This document shows positions 3,008 through 7,880 of a stretch of DNA of 7,880 nt, one piece after another. Position 1 is the first letter of the stretch; every line of letters begins with the position of its first letter. Origin of the DNA: Gemmataceae bacterium (GTDB lineage Bacteria; Planctomycetota; Planctomycetia; Gemmatales; Gemmataceae); the NCBI GenBank assembly GCA_025056835.1, contig JANWVS010000072.1, positions 1 through 7,880 of the forward strand. Reading direction: 5' to 3'. Made by a program: the position numbers and the translations under genes. The notes below the pieces were generated by a model. It was not told where the DNA came from. It made no database searches and saw only the letters and a list, made by a program, of their open reading frames with translations.

Positions 3008-3880
3008 GTGGAAGGCGCAAATTACGATTTGACCGCGGAACTCACCGGCAAACGCGATCGCCTGCTGGAGTTGCTGCGCGGCTTGGGACGCGTCGCCGTG
3101 GCATTTTCCGGCGGTGTGGATAGCAGCGTCGTTGCCAAGGCGGCCTGGCTTGCGGTCGGAGACAACGCCGTCGCGATTACGGCGGACAGTCCCAGCGTAC
3201 CGAGAGCGGAAATGACGGCGGCGCGTGACCTCGCGGCACGGATCGGCATACGCCATGTCGTCATTGCCACGGAGGAATTCAATCATCCCCAATACCGTCG
3301 TAACGACGGCACGCGGTGCTTCTTTTGCAAAGACGAACTTTACCGGCAGATCGAGCACGTCATGCCTGCTCTCGGCTTAACCACCATCTGCAGCGGCGCC
3401 AACTTGGATGATCTCGGCGATTTTCGCCCGGGGCTGAAGGCAGCCGCGAAACACGCCGTGCGCCATCCGCTACAGGAAGCCGGCTGTCGCAAGTCCGACG
3501 TCCGAGCGTTGGCGCGCCATTGGAACTTGCCGACCGCCGATAAGCCGGCTTCTCCGTGCCTGTCGAGCCGCATCGCCCCAGGGGTGGAAGTGACCCCCGA
3601 AAGAGTTCGTCGCGTGGAATTGGCGGAAGCACTGCTGAAAAACCTGGGATTGCGAGACTGCCGCGTTCGCCTTCACCACGGCGAATTGGCTCGCATCGAA
3701 GCGCCGCCGGAGGAAATCGTGCGCCTCGCCCAGCCTGAGATTCGCCGCCGATTGACGCAACATTTTCAGGAACTAGGATTTGTCTTTGTGACGATCGACT
3801 TGGAGGGACTTCGCAGCGGCAGCCTCAACGTCCTCGTCGATGTCGAAACACGTCGGCTTTTCGCAACGGACAATCAATGA
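3008..3880 (+). CDS. larE: ATP-dependent sacrificial sulfur transferase LarE
   Basis: LarE adenylates a pyridinium dicarboxylic mononucleotide and then donates sulfur from its own cysteine, a step in making the nickel-pincer nucleotide cofactor of lactate racemase and related LarA enzymes. The 290-residue protein, with a GTG start, has the PP-loop SGGVDSS at 34-40, the RCFFCK motif at 103-108, SGANLDDLGDFRPGLKAA at 129-146 and the SPCLSSRI segment at 182-189. Cys184 there aligns with the sacrificial cysteine of Lactobacillus LarE. Only one cysteine is seen at that site, so there is no sign of the iron-sulfur-type LarE. Length matches the family (about 270-290 aa). It ends with TGA. LarB, LarC and LarA are not in the window, so the cofactor pathway cannot be confirmed locally. 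It diverges from scpB and may head the downstream plus-strand cluster, with 69 nt to the next gene. Confidence 0.92.
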   Translation: MEGANYDLTAELTGKRDRLLELLRGLGRVAVAFSGGVDSSVVAKAAWLAVGDNAVAITADSPSVPRAEMTAARDLAARIGIRHVVIATEEFNHPQYRRNDGTRCFFCKDELYRQIEHVMPALGLTTICSGANLDDLGDFRPGLKAAAKHAVRHPLQEAGCRKSDVRALARHWNLPTADKPASPCLSSRIAPGVEVTPERVRRVELAEALLKNLGLRDCRVRLHHGELARIEAPPEEIVRLAQPEIRRRLTQHFQELGFVFVTIDLEGLRSGSLNVLVDVETRRLFATDNQ

Positions 3881-3949
3881 TGGTAGTCAGCCTGAGGAAT
3901 GTTTCTTCGTAAAAGCCGCAAGTGCCGAAACCACGAGCTGGAGCATACG

Positions 3950-4216
3950 ATGGCCCTATCTCCCCTTTCCGCCGTTAAGGCCTTAGATGCGTATTTTCTC
4001 GAGGCCCGGGCCCGCATCCTGGACTTGGCTGCCATTCTTGACCGCATTGGTCGCGGTGCGGGTGCGGAAGCTGTCGATTCCGACCCACGTCTCATGAAAA
4101 TTCGCAAAGCCCTGGAAGTGCTCCAAGACCAATCCGGTGGTCGGGCGGAACGAATCCAACAAATCTTCTCCTTGGAGTATGATCCGCAGTGGGAAAAGCC
4201 GCGACCACGTGGGTAG
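3950..4216 (+). CDS. Small unrecognised protein, 88 aa
   Basis: I do not recognise this family. The ATG at 3950 is chosen because GGAG lies at 3940-3943 with a 6-nt spacer; a longer frame back to 3899 would add 17 very basic residues and lacks such a site. The product is predicted mostly helical and soluble: ALSPLSAVKALDAYFLEARARILDLAAILDRIG followed by a short linker and a second helical part (LMKIRKALEVLQDQ, AERIQQIF), ending with a proline- and arginine-rich tail. No signal peptide, membrane segment or cysteines are present. The YFLEAR...LAAILDRIGRG pattern suggests a helical hairpin. It sits between larE and the formylmethanofuran dehydrogenase genes on the same strand, so a link to either is possible but unproven. 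Confidence 0.75.
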   Translation: MALSPLSAVKALDAYFLEARARILDLAAILDRIGRGAGAEAVDSDPRLMKIRKALEVLQDQSGGRAERIQQIFSLEYDPQWEKPRPRG

Positions 4217-4392
4217 CGCACCACACGACCGCCGAGTTTTCCGAACCCGTCTTTTGCACTCCCTTGCGTTCCGTGGGCAACGCTCCTAAAATTTCCAGGG
4301 GCCAGCGGCTGCGGCGATTTCTGCGCGCGATCCTCCAGACCTGGTTCAGAGAAATTGAGGCCCTGTCATGGCGGCGATGCGGTTCATCATGA
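4189..4392 (+). CDS. Possible small basic protein overlapping both neighbours, 67 aa
   Basis: A GTG-started frame begins 28 nt inside the end of the 88-aa gene and ends 25 nt inside fwdD, filling a 151-base gap. Its product is basic, and the C-terminal half reads as an amphipathic helix rich in Trp and Arg (RGQRLRRFLRAILQTWFREI, then EALSWRRCGSS). Overlapping ends of this kind are compatible with translational coupling, but I see no strong ribosome site and no family match from memory. The alternative is that the gap is simply a leader carrying the fwdD ribosome site. Confidence 0.3.
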   Translation: MGKAATTWVAHHTTAEFSEPVFCTPLRSVGNAPKISRGQRLRRFLRAILQTWFREIEALSWRRCGSS

Positions 4393-4712
4393 ACGCCGGT
4401 CGAACGAGTAAGCAAGGCCAGCAGATCAATGTCGGCAAAGACAATCCGGAATACGACGCTATCGTTTCTACGTTGACCTTTCATCCCGACGACCTGAAGA
4501 CTCTCGGCGTGACTGCCGGAATGACAGTTCGGGTCCGCTCGGAATACGGCGGCGTGGCAGATTTTCGCTGCCAAGAAGGCAAAGTGCCGCGCGGCATGAT
4601 CTTTGTCCCCTACGGACCGCCAACGTGTCGCCTGATGGGCACGACAACCGACGGCACGGGAATGCCGACCTCGAAAAATTGGGAGGTTGAAGTTGAACCG
4701 GTCGACGCCTGA
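4368..4712 (+). CDS. fwdD: Formylmethanofuran dehydrogenase subunit D-like, molybdopterin dinucleotide-binding protein
   Basis: This 114-residue protein matches the FwdD/FmdD subunit, which corresponds to the C-terminal dinucleotide-binding domain of the formate dehydrogenase/DMSO reductase family and completes the Mo/W-bis(pyranopterin guanine dinucleotide) pocket with FwdB. Visible hallmarks are the early NAGRTSKQGQQINVGKD segment, the DLKTLGVTAGMTVRVRSEYG strand region and the C-terminal GMIFVPYGPPTCRLM...TGMP.SKNWEVEVE block. FwdD of methanogens is about 130 aa, so this copy is slightly short. ATG 4368 is chosen because GAGG lies at 4357-4360 with a 7-nt spacer; ATGs at 4377 and 4389 are alternatives. 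It ends with TGA. It should not be confused with FhcD, the formyltransferase subunit of methylotrophs. Its presence argues that the complex binds the metal cofactor. Confidence 0.88.
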   Translation: MAAMRFIMNAGRTSKQGQQINVGKDNPEYDAIVSTLTFHPDDLKTLGVTAGMTVRVRSEYGGVADFRCQEGKVPRGMIFVPYGPPTCRLMGTTTDGTGMPTSKNWEVEVEPVDA

Positions 4713-4767: not shown

Positions 4768-4962
4768 ATGGACATCGCAGTAGCAGAGGACAGGCGGCCG
4801 GAACAGTTTTCGGGCGATCCCGGGGCTTTCGACGTGCCAACCACAGCGCAATTTCGCGTGCCCGAGGCGAACATGGTCGCGGCTGCTTGGGAAGAGGTTA
4901 CGCCGGGGCGGTATCAACCGCGTCGTTTCAAGGGCAGTTGCCAAGGTCGAGCCTTGGGTTGA
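4768..4962 (+). CDS. Small unrecognised protein between fwdD and fwdB, 64 aa
   Basis: A 64-codon frame starts at ATG 4768, preceded by GGGA (4758-4761) with a 6-nt spacer, and ends with TGA. I do not recognise a family. The N-terminal half is acidic and polar; the C-terminus is basic and ordered-looking (TPGRYQPRRFKGSCQGRALG). There is one cysteine, no signal peptide and no membrane segment. It fills nearly all of the space between fwdD and fwdB (55 and 53 nt gaps), which favours a real gene of the same operon. Possible roles such as an assembly factor or small accessory subunit of the dehydrogenase are speculation. Confidence 0.6.
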   Translation: MDIAVAEDRRPEQFSGDPGAFDVPTTAQFRVPEANMVAAAWEEVTPGRYQPRRFKGSCQGRALG

Positions 4963-5015
4963 ACGTTTGTCATGCCGTCCGGTCCGGATGGTGAAATCCG
5001 TCGCTGAGTTGTTTC

Positions 5016-6350
5016 ATGGAATTGACCGTAGTGAAAAACGCAACCTGCACGTTTTGCGGGTGCGTGTGCGACGACATTGAACTGCACGCCGACCACCGCC
5101 GAATCGTCCACACTAAGGCGGCGTGTGTTCTCGGCGCCAGCTGGTTCAAGAACCACACCGCTGAACGGCTTTATCCGGAAGCCCTGATTGACGGCCGCGA
5201 GGCCACGGTCGATGAAGCAGTCGAGGCAGCGGCCCATTATTTGCACGACGCCGCCTTGCCCTTGGTCTACGGCCTGAGCAATATCACCTGCGAGGCCCAG
5301 CGGGAGGCGATTTCATTGGCTGAACTGATCGGCGGAGTCGTCGACAGCCACACGTCGCTTTGACACGGTCCAACCGAAATAGCCGCCCAGTTGGGTGGCA
5401 AGGTCTCCTGCACGCTCGGCGAAGTCAAGAACCGGGCGGATTTCATCGTTTACTGGGGAGGCAACCCGGCTGAATGCCATCCGCGCCACTTCACGAAATA
5501 CACGTTGACGCAAAAAGGGAAATTCATCCCCAACGGCCGCAAAGATCGGACGATGGTGCTGGTGGACATCCGCGAGACCCCGAGCGCCAAAGCCGCCGAT
5601 ATCTTCCTCCAGGTTCGCCCCTCGAAAGATTTTGAAGTCATCACCACCTTGCGGGCCCTCATCAAGGGACAGCCCGTCGCCCGCGATATGGTGGCGGAGA
5701 CCGGTTTGACGCTGGACCAACTTCAAGACTTGGCGGAGCGCATGAAGCGAGCACGCTTCGGCGTGTTGTTCTTTGGTATGGGATTGTCGATGACCCGCGG
5801 CAAGCACATGAACTCCGCGGCCATCCTGACGCTCGCGGCAGAGTTGAATGCGTTTACCAAGTTCGTGGCCATGCCGATGCGCGGTCACGGCAATGTCACC
5901 GGCGGCGACGTCATCATGCGCTGGACAACGGGCTATCCGTTCGGCGTCAATCTGGCCCGGGGCTATCCCCGTTTCAACCCCGGCGAGTTTTCGACCGTTG
6001 ATTTGCTCATTCGCGGCGATTGCGACGCAGCCCTGATTGTGGGGGCCGATCCTGGTGCGACCATGCCGCAGCCGGCAATCGACCATTTGGCACGCATCCC
6101 GACGATCGTGTTGGACCCCAAACTCACCCACACCAGCCGCTTGGCTCGAGTGCACATTACCACCGCAGTGACGGGCATCAGTGCGCCCGGCACCGTCTAC
6201 CGCATGGATGAAATCCCATTGCCGTTGCGTCCTGCCTTGAAGTCACCTTATCCGACCGACGAAGAAGTTCTTCGCCGAATTCACATGGCCGTCGCCGCCA
6301 GAAGCCGGCCTGCGCCGCCCGTCGTGTGGCCGGGGCCGGTGGCTGTTTGA
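5016..6350 (+). CDS. fwdB: Formylmethanofuran dehydrogenase subunit B, selenocysteine-containing (UGA at codon 116)
   Basis: FwdB is the catalytic Mo/W-bis(pyranopterin) subunit that interconverts CO2 and formate in formylmethanofuran dehydrogenase. Read with TGA 5361-5363 as selenocysteine, the product is 444 residues, close to the roughly 430 of methanogen FwdB. Cys11, Cys14, Cys18 and Cys37 form the N-terminal [4Fe-4S] motif (CTFCGCVCDD, then AACVLG). Sec116 lies in TSLUHGPTEIA, the position of the metal-ligating Cys/Sec (Cys118 in Methanothermobacter). Downstream family blocks are intact: LGEVKNRADFIVYWGGNPAECHPRH, MPMRGHGNVTGGD, TTGYPFGVNLARGYPRFNPGEF, LIVGADPGATMP and GTVYRMDEIPLPLR. 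Without recoding the gene would be read as a 115-aa and a 319-aa fragment. Neighbouring genes, and this gene's own end, use TGA as stop, so the code is not globally changed. ATG 5016 lacks a strong ribosome site. A sequencing error (TGC to TGA) is the main alternative. Confidence 0.9.
5361..5363 (+). other. In-frame UGA read as selenocysteine (Sec116 of FwdB)
   Basis: The TGA falls exactly on the family's active-site Cys/Sec codon, followed in frame by His-Gly-Pro-Thr. Sec is known at this position in some methanogen and other archaeal FwdB/FmdB proteins, and the related formate dehydrogenase FdhF of E. coli also has Sec-His-Gly-Pro. A hairpin fitting a bacterial SECIS lies just downstream. 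selA, selB, selC and selD are not in this window. Confidence 0.85.
5364..5404 (+). promoter_or_regulatory. Candidate bacterial SECIS element inside fwdB
   Basis: GCCGCCC (5382-5388) pairs with GGGTGGC (5393-5399), seven base pairs including one G-U, closing the tetraloop AGUU (5389-5392). Twenty-five nucleotides separate the UGA from the loop, and G is the second loop base. Both fit the published bacterial SECIS pattern as I remember it (16-37 nt spacing, a G in the first two loop positions). A lower 3-bp stem, ACC 5373-5375 with GGT 5402-5404, is possible. A short competing hairpin, CGGT 5366-5369 with ACCG 5373-5376, could also form. The hairpin would recruit SelB and Sec-tRNA. Confidence 0.75.
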
Positions 6351-6372: not shown

Positions 6373-7880
6373 GTGGGGGATCATTCCCAAATACGCATTA
6401 CCGGCGGCGTCGTGTACGATCCCGCCAACGGCATCCATGGAGAGGTTCGCGACATTTGCATCCGGGACGGCCGAATCGTCGAGTCGGTCGACGGCGGCCG
6501 AATCATCGACGCAGCGGGCATGATTGTTTTTCCCGGCGGTGTTGATGTCCACACGCATGTTGCCGGCGCGGCCCTCAATTTTGCTCGGGCCATGATTCCC
6601 GAAGACCATCGCCGCCATGCGCCGGTGATTCGCAGTGCCGTGCGGCGCGGCGGTATCAGCGGGGCCACCCCGACGACGTTTGTCACCGGCTACCTTTATG
6701 CCGGTTTGGGCTACACGACTGTCAACGAAGCGGCTGTTCCGATCCTTTCGGCCCGTCACACGCACGAGGAGCTGCGCGACACACCGATCGTCGACAAATC
6801 AACCTGCGTGTTGATGGCCAATAATGAGATTTTGCTCGACCTGATCGAAGCCGGCGAGCTGGAGCAAGCTCGTCATGTCACCGCGTGGAACATTTGGGCG
6901 GCCAAGGCCTACGGAGTTAAAGCCGTCAATCCCGGAGGGGTCGCTGCGTGGAAATGGGGTAAGGACGCCAAGGGGCTTTTCGAGCCGGTGCCCGGTTATC
7001 GCTCGCTGACGCCCGCCATGATTATCCAGGCCTTGGCCGGCATCGTCAACAGCCTGAAACTGCCGCACGCGCTCCACCTTCACTGCAATCACCTCGGTGC
7101 GCCGGGCAATTACCAAACCACGTTGGAGACGATGAAGGTTCTCGAAGGCCATCGCGCTCATTTAGCCCACCTGCAATATCACGCCTACGGCGGTGACGAT
7201 TGGTCGACCATGCGCTCCGAAACCGTTCGGATTGCCGACGAATTCAACGCGCGGGACAACCTCACGACCGACGCCGGCGCCGTTCTTTTTGGCGACACCG
7301 TTACGATCACTGCCGATGGGCCTTGGCAGCACTTGCTGTATCAGTTGACCGGTAAGAAATGGGGAAATATCGACGTCGAAAACGAAACCGGCTGTGGGGT
7401 CGTTCCCTACGTTTATAAGGAAAAAAACCTGGTCAACGCCATCCAATGGGCCGTGGGCTTGGAATTGCTACTGCTTATCAAGGATCCGTGGCGGATTTAT
7501 CTTACCACAGACCATCCCAACGGAGCCGCTTTCTGGCGTTATCCGGAAGTCATTCAGTTGTTGATGTGTCGCGACTATCGGCGTGAACAGCTTCAGAAAT
7601 TAGCGCCCAAAGCGCTCAAACGGATCGTTTTGCCGGAGCTGGATCGCGAATATACTCTCTCGGAAATCGCGATCATCACGTCCGCCGGCCCCGCCCGGGC
7701 CTTGGGACTGACCAACAAAGGGCACTTGGGCGTGGGAGCGGATGCGGACATCGCCATTTTCAACCGAACCGCAGACGCTGCCCGCATGTTCGCCTACCCC
7801 CGCTACGTCCTCAAACGCGGCGAGATTGTCGTCGAAGAAGGTGAAATCCGCAACGTGGTCAACGGCCGAGGACTGCTGGT
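6373..7880 (+). CDS. fwdA: Formylmethanofuran dehydrogenase subunit A (partial, C-terminus off the right edge)
   Basis: FwdA is the amidohydrolase-family subunit that interconverts formate and the formyl group on the methanofuran-type carrier at a binuclear zinc site. From GTG 6373 the frame is open to the window end, giving 502 of the usual roughly 550-570 residues. Metal-site residues are all visible: HTH at 60-62 in GGVDVHTHVAG, Lys183 in GVKAVNPGG (the carboxylated lysine position), the LHLHCNHLGAPGN histidines (235, 237 and 240), the HLAHLQYHAYGGD histidines (266 and 270) and Asp380 in TTDHPNGAAF (catalytic aspartate position). The C-terminal part, TSAGPARALGLTNKGHLGVGADADIAIF, is typical of the family. 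The gene follows fwdB by 22 nt, a clear sign of cotranscription. FwdC and a formyltransferase (ftr/fhcD) would be expected downstream but lie outside the window. Methylotroph FhcA is homologous, so function in the dehydrogenase is inferred from FwdB and FwdD. Confidence 0.95.
   Translation, partial: MGDHSQIRITGGVVYDPANGIHGEVRDICIRDGRIVESVDGGRIIDAAGMIVFPGGVDVHTHVAGAALNFARAMIPEDHRRHAPVIRSAVRRGGISGATPTTFVTGYLYAGLGYTTVNEAAVPILSARHTHEELRDTPIVDKSTCVLMANNEILLDLIEAGELEQARHVTAWNIWAAKAYGVKAVNPGGVAAWKWGKDAKGLFEPVPGYRSLTPAMIIQALAGIVNSLKLPHALHLHCNHLGAPGNYQTTLETMKVLEGHRAHLAHLQYHAYGGDDWSTMRSETVRIADEFNARDNLTTDAGAVLFGDTVTITADGPWQHLLYQLTGKKWGNIDVENETGCGVVPYVYKEKNLVNAIQWAVGLELLLLIKDPWRIYLTTDHPNGAAFWRYPEVIQLLMCRDYRREQLQKLAPKALKRIVLPELDREYTLSEIAIITSAGPARALGLTNKGHLGVGADADIAIFNRTADAARMFAYPRYVLKRGEIVVEEGEIRNVVNGRGLL

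Follow-up and report, generated by a model that had tools for sequence, protein, structure and literature searches.

In 2016, a planctomycete known as P2 and two unclassified bacteria were reported to encode selenocysteine-containing forms of formylmethanofuran dehydrogenase subunit B (Sec-FwdB; PMC4807772). In that account the P2 gene for Sec FmdB lies in an operon of the order fmdD-fmdB-fmdA-fmdC, Sec and Cys forms both occur in P2, and Gly forms are found in three planctomycetes. The related protein FhcB is described as a scaffold without Mo or W (PMC10100899). For bacterial SECIS elements, a rule has been given that asks for a stem of at least 4 bp, a loop of 3–9 nt with G in the first two loop positions, a distance of 16–37 nt from the UGA and an MFE of −7.5 or lower (PMC13188914). 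New bacterial selenoproteins have also been named by deep-Sep (PMC12013277).

We analysed a stretch of 7,880 nucleotides (the window), which is contig 699 of a source assembly with 739 contigs, a total of 3,193,467 bases and a completeness of 75.73%. The closest named records were Gemmataceae and other planctomycete metagenome assemblies, with a few under other names, e.g. Acidobacteria. The features of the window are listed in Table 1. Against the FwdD model NF042908, the fwdD-like gene scored 82.3 bits, which is below the cut-off of 175. A long frame on the minus strand (3–2003) presumably encodes a secretin. Between larE and fwdD lies a 105-codon frame (3899–4216) that had no Pfam match and for which tblastn among the fetched loci matched just the window's own copy (L091). 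An Rfam scan of the window gave two snoRNA matches only, both below the gathering scores and elsewhere in the window than the hairpins of Table 1.

Two genes of this operon contain an in-frame UGA, that of the small gene lying 401 bases upstream of that of fwdB. Judged from sequence comparison, both codons are very probably read as selenocysteine with the aid of a hairpin, in FwdB and in a small, likely partner protein.

Table 1. Features of the window, with strand and supporting evidence
Feature	Position	Strand	Evidence or remark
larE	3008–3880	+	
fwdD-like gene, molybdopterin dinucleotide-binding domain	4368–4712	+	PF01568, 43.6 bits (cut-off 26.8)
Small gene, predicted selenoprotein, 79 residues (64 + Sec + 14)	4768–5007	+	Start ATG at 4768 is predicted
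TGA within the small-gene frame, predicted to encode Sec	4960–4962	+	TGA in 111/111 loci
SECIS-like hairpin of the small gene	4974–4992	+	Stem 7 bp, loop 4981–4985; alignment, pair counts, rule test
fwdB, predicted selenoprotein, 444 residues	5016–6350	+	
TGA within the fwdB frame, predicted to encode Sec at the metal-ligand site	5361–5363	+	
SECIS-like hairpin of fwdB	5382–5399	+	Stem 7 bp, loop AGUU 5389–5392
fwdA, continues past the window edge	6373–7878	+	TIGR03121, 672.3 bits (cut-off 392.75)
scpB		−	

The in-frame TGA of fwdB

The fwdB gene forms a single frame with one internal stop, the TGA at codon 116, in the context SHTSL-U-HGPT. The read-through product scored 502.7 bits against TIGR03129 (curated cut-off 327.8). 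The parts before and after the TGA scored 99.3 and 381.4 bits, respectively, and lie in register on profile positions 1–111 and 114–419. Residue 116 aligns to Cys118 of the tungsten enzyme FwdB (PDB 5t5i) and to a residue written X in 9sfi, so that the window protein has U-H-G-P where the family has Cys or Sec followed by His at the metal-ligand position. The four Cys of the N-terminal [4Fe-4S] cluster (residues 11, 14, 18 and 37) are present, as is Arg289, which we take to be the active-site Arg.

With one genome scanned per species, 155 stretches with FwdB relatives were obtained, and in the best 80 of these, which were kept (identity 74–87%), the ligand codon was TGA without exception. After removal of redundancy and with the window included, TGA was found in 85 of 85 loci. 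A phylum-wide draw of 392 genomes added eight genomes with TGA-FwdB; three of their loci duplicated earlier ones and the five new ones all had TGA. Because the codon is fixed across related loci, we set chance and sequencing error aside as its source. The median pN/pS against the window was 0.25 before the UGA and 0.17 after it (84 comparisons), and both halves of fwdB are under purifying selection; the gene is no pseudogene.

The hairpin GCCGCCC-AGUU-GGGUGGC starts 18 nt 3′ of the UGA, and its loop lies 25 nt from the UGA. A 42-nt stretch folded at −17.7 kcal/mol (z −3.2) and longer stretches gave z values of −1.2 and −0.1; since z drops in this way, folding energy alone is weak evidence for the hairpin. 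Synonymous variation was determined in 302 eight-codon windows of fwdB, and the five lowest begin at codons 120–124, which is where the hairpin lies. In 85/85 non-redundant loci its loop is spanned by the codons CAG and TTG; non-TGA paralogues with the peptide AAQLGG use CAA CTC, CAG CTC and CAG CTT (L141, L143 and L144). The stem positions were paired in 98.2% of the alignment cells, compared with 28.8–56.8% when the stem was slid along the alignment. Covariation was slight (one double-changed cell; 31 of 500 shuffles reached as much). The SECIS rule, including its energy limit, was satisfied in 79 of the 85 non-redundant TGA loci. With the energy limit left out, and counted without de-duplication, 107/113 TGA copies but only 6/41 other FwdB copies satisfied it.

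These results confirm the original observation and support its interpretation in part; it had placed a selenocysteine codon at the metal-ligand position of FwdB in one frame, with family sequence intact on both sides and a hairpin behind the TGA. The alignment to the FwdB family and the comparison with relatives, which it had proposed as checks, both agree with it. As it had noted, neighbouring genes stop with TGA (larE, fwdD and fwdB itself all do), and local recoding is well supported by the sequence evidence. We conclude that the FwdB of the window very likely carries a selenocysteine. The view that such a protein is unusual in a bacterium was not supported: among the close relatives the TGA form is standard, and it had been reported in 2016 (PMC4807772).

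The complex might nevertheless be a non-redox formyltransferase/hydrolase like the methylotroph FhcABCD, with the selenocysteine of FwdB as a relic. The nature of FhcB, a scaffold free of Mo and W (PMC10100899), is in line with this, as are planctomycete paralogues with Thr, Ser, Gly or others at the site. Among 184 FwdB sequences (not de-duplicated), the four cluster Cys, His117 and Arg289 were retained not only in 114/114 TGA copies but also in 35 Cys, 13 Thr, 7 Ser and 6 Gly copies, and nine further copies deviate at one or more of these positions. As the Thr, Ser and Gly forms keep them too, the cluster Cys alone are no proof of redox activity, and it is odd that they are kept without a Cys or Sec at the ligand position. 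Nine loci with Thr, Ser or Gly at this position and with the cluster Cys, His and Arg retained are L141, L143, L144, L148, L153, L154, L161, L163 and L164. We consider the relic unlikely all the same. Unlike in FhcB, which lacks a Mo/W ligand, the ligand codon here is UGA in 85/85 non-redundant loci, every TGA copy combines it with the complete set of cluster and active-site residues, and a relic would not hold a UGA and a hairpin under the strongest constraint of the gene.

A small gene upstream of fwdB

It could also be argued that the operon holds nothing beyond an ordinary Sec-FwdB as in the 2016 report, in which the P2 operon already has the Sec form and the order D-B-A-C (PMC4807772). 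There is only a slight chance of this, as the text of that paper, its table S9 aside, mentions no small selenoprotein gene for that operon. In the loci analysed here, the interval from fwdD to fwdB contains a small frame in 83 of 84 non-redundant Sec-FwdB loci (the window not counted), with L052 as the exception. The frame ends in TGA in each of the 111 loci that have it (84/84 when non-redundant). The small gene was also found upstream of 4 of 41 non-TGA FwdB copies, all of them Thr copies sharing an operon with a Sec copy; the four represent two loci, each fetched twice. A tandem order of fwdD, small gene, Thr-FwdB and Sec-FwdB was seen at L144:3320–6780 and L143:3326–6672, and no fwdA was matched alongside in the frames examined. 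In four of the five new loci from the phylum-wide draw the small gene is present, again with TGA and a Phe at +2. The fifth locus, L180, breaks off some 50 bases ahead of fwdB and stands outside the small-gene count.

Coding sequence is conserved beyond this UGA. All 84 loci have Phe at +2 (48 TTC, 36 TTT), 78 of them have Pro at +5, and over the five codons from the UGA to the hairpin pN/pS was 0.48 in frame, compared with 1.2 and 1.8 in the other frames. The terminal stops of the gene are mixed (41 TGA, 26 TAA, 17 TAG). If the first stop were drawn like them, the chance of TGA in 84/84 would be near 7e−27, a figure that ignores kinship; the true chance is milder because the loci are related.

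In the window, the hairpin loop of the small gene begins 18 nt downstream of its UGA. Loops follow the pattern N-GU-NN, with GGTCC in 31, GGTTC in 30 and AGTTC in 10 of 84 loci. The stem covaries: 66 double-changed cells were counted versus 30.6 in shuffles, and none of 500 shuffles was as high. Of all stem cells, 88.8% pair (26.7–48.1% when slid), and the outermost pair fails in 39/84 loci. The folding z is modest (−1.3 in the window; −0.1 to −3.1 in eight loci). The SECIS rule, energy limit included, was satisfied by 75 of 84 non-redundant loci versus 109 of 840 shuffled sequences.

One could read the small-gene UGA as an ordinary stop and the hairpin as a regulatory or coupling element ahead of fwdB. 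Three observations agree with such a stop: all 120 database proteins listed (of 3580 found by profile search) finish there, at the Gly before the UGA; the tail varies from 11 to 54 codons and is poorly conserved past Pro +5; and a Cys at the UGA position, which homologues of a bacterial selenoprotein usually but not necessarily include, was seen neither among the 111 loci nor among the 120 listed proteins. However, an ordinary stop would leave the invariable TGA at odds with the mixed terminal stops, and the Phe codon at +2, which changes only synonymously, indicates constraint in frame. The geometry, loop and spacing of the hairpin match the bacterial SECIS model, and the gene occurs in the same genomes as TGA-FwdB. 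We regard the ordinary stop as quite unlikely, and a second, previously undescribed selenoprotein in the operon of Sec-FwdB as likely.

The core of the small protein in most rows is W-x5-GR[FY]MPRRxRGSxxGRxLGU-x-F. A Cys stands seven residues ahead of the UGA in 42/84, so a Cys-Sec pair is not required. No family was matched in NCBIfam or Pfam at E values up to 10, and the named proteins among the listed matches are all called 'hypothetical protein'. AlphaFold2 gave a mean pLDDT of 64 and a pTM of 0.28, with a confident beta-hairpin at residues 41–51 and little else, a model too weak to base a fold search on. The table of 119 selenoprotein families in PMC13188914 contains no GRxLGU-like motif, some of its families being entered without a motif, and the words 'planctomycet' and 'formylmethanofuran' are absent from the main text of the deep-Sep paper (PMC12013277). 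In the open literature searched, supplements aside, the small protein goes unmentioned (including PMC4807772, PMC13188914, PMC10100899, PMC12013277 and PMC1794560). The small protein probably represents a new selenoprotein family.

Selenium machinery and database entries

TGA-FwdB is carried by 33 of 119 related genomes, counted as full-length matches of at least 77% identity with one TGA (list compiled by hand). Matches with one TGA at identities of 61% or less were not counted as TGA-FwdB; in the five of these that were fetched, G011, G017, G031, G104 and G118, the site reads TGC, TGC, GGG, TCG and TTT, respectively, and G092 and G100 were left out along with them. With the small-gene alignment as query, 33 of the 119 genomes were matched, and these are the identical 33. 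SelB exceeded its cut-off in 32/33 genomes with TGA-FwdB versus 44/86 without (p 9e−7); the sole genome with TGA-FwdB and without SelB is the window's own. For tRNA-Sec the figures were 28/33 and 44/86. Here a score above 60 bits was required, and the raw tally of 119/119 genomes was discarded, the weak matches being tRNA-Ser (as shown for the window's own genome). SelD was over its cut-off in 30/33 genomes with TGA-FwdB, all but G000, G003 and G040. The selD match carries one TGA in many relatives (G019, G022, G023, G056, G066 and others), so that SelD itself is likely a selenoprotein there.

Within family f1, selC was present in 27/32 genomes with TGA-FwdB versus 30/41 others (p 0.39) and SelB in 31/32 versus 31/41 (p 0.018). 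The association with the machinery partly tracks family, since within f1 the selC contrast vanishes and that of SelB is weak. In family f6, the only one of eight genomes with TGA-FwdB is also the only one with SelB and tRNA-Sec. Among 20 further hand-picked genomes from the phylum-wide draw, SelB was found in 8/8 with TGA-FwdB and in 4/12 without.

The original prediction had proposed a search of the source genome for selA, selB, selC and selD, and its outcome was divided. The genome has an intact selA (469 codons), whereas selB, selC and selD were not found by model search in the 75.7% complete assembly, which is the weak point of the case for recoding. The best matches were elongation factor G for selB, tRNA-Ser for selC and thiamine-phosphate kinase for selD. 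The SelB wing model PF09106 had no match in this genome; full SelA, SelB and SelD models were used after it.

The read-through FwdB matched 6287 database proteins, and among the 120 listed, 91 begin after the UGA, 73 of them at a Leu encoded by TTG inside the hairpin (71 LGGKVSCT, 2 LGGKVTCT). These starts, together with a TTG that is fixed in 85/85 loci, would fit a split subunit, in which the fwdB UGA terminates and the remainder is translated separately from TTG codon 126, but this is very improbable: the conserved UGA would part the cluster domain from the active site and leave the ligand residue absent, the constraint spans both sides of the stem and extends beyond the start codon, no Shine-Dalgarno-like sequence was seen by eye just 5′ of the TTG, and in relatives that lack the UGA the frame runs uninterrupted through a Cys, Ser, Thr or other residue at the site.

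The remaining 29 of the 120 listed proteins extend further; their residue at the site is Cys in 13, Thr in 10 and Ser in 5, and P0002 shows a gap there. This protein (417 residues, in the Sec clade) is missing roughly twelve or more residues starting at the Sec site and may derive from a gene model in which the UGA was passed over. In a quick tree, 23 Sec rows and P0002 formed one clade (SH-aLRT 90; no bootstrap). It adjoins a clade of 20 mostly Thr or Ser rows (12 Thr, 6 Ser, 2 Cys), and both lie within the Cys forms. The tree gives no date for the gain of selenocysteine. At L157:1–1046 (G002 C281), a second, partial TGA-FwdB lies at a contig end, with two frames around the site.

Proposed function and comparison with known systems

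Taken together, we favour, on balance, an operon that makes paired selenoproteins. One would be a FwdB with selenium and W or Mo. The other would belong to an undescribed family of about 60–110 residues (GRxLGU-x-F) that has no Cys form and works only with Sec-FwdB, as a subunit, a relay (of electrons or of selenium/sulfur) or a maturation factor of a redox-active enzyme. The hairpin just 3′ of each UGA likely recruits SelB with tRNA-Sec. With both UGAs recoded, selenium would sit at the metal-ligand position of the likely formylmethanofuran dehydrogenase subunit B, where a W or Mo pterin may bind to Sec116, and also near the end of the small, likely partner protein. The enzyme would convert formyl-methanofuran to or from CO2, probably in the direction of oxidation in an H4MPT-linked C1 pathway, which we take to be the setting of the FwdB reaction. 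For the small protein, our best guess is a putative small subunit of the Sec-type complex or a factor in its maturation.

Sec-FwdB is not new to planctomycetes; it is lineage-wide yet hidden, and a large lineage of these bacteria has it as its standard form. It is hidden because database entries begin after the UGA, and as a result of these shortened entries, surveys of C1 pathways miss both the cluster domain and the active site. Searches for Sec/Cys pairs would likewise miss the small family because no Cys form was seen. If the enzyme is selenium-dependent and redox-active, these bacteria would interconvert CO2 and formyl-methanofuran, beyond hydrolysis alone. The one-to-one tie of the small gene to Sec-FwdB offers a direct test of the role of selenium in this enzyme family.

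The closest described system is the Sec-FwdB of P2 and the Lake Washington fosmid (PMC4807772), which shares with the window a selenocysteine at the active site and a planctomycete host. Its gene order D-B-A-C is also that of this group, as seen with fwdC in L014; the window stops in fwdA. In that description one selenoprotein is named in the operon, whereas here a second UGA gene stands between fwdD and fwdB, and here the trait is traced across the lineage. Methanogen Sec-FwdB (TIGR03129, UHxP; PMC13188914) is alike in family, ligand position and UHGP motif; its archaeal SECIS, however, is of another type, and here a bacterial SECIS lies within the coding sequence. FhcB of aerobic methylotrophs (PMC10100899) is also a bacterial relative of FwdB, but it is without Mo or W, whereas the window FwdB is predicted to retain the ligand position as Sec. 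VhuU, a tiny Sec subunit of a methanogen hydrogenase (MvhA/VhuA/VhuU in PMC13188914), resembles the small protein, if that is a partner of Sec-FwdB, as a Sec protein in a redox complex. Compared by motif, VhuU has UxxC and the small protein GRxLGU-x-F, and we regard the likeness as a working parallel, not as kinship.
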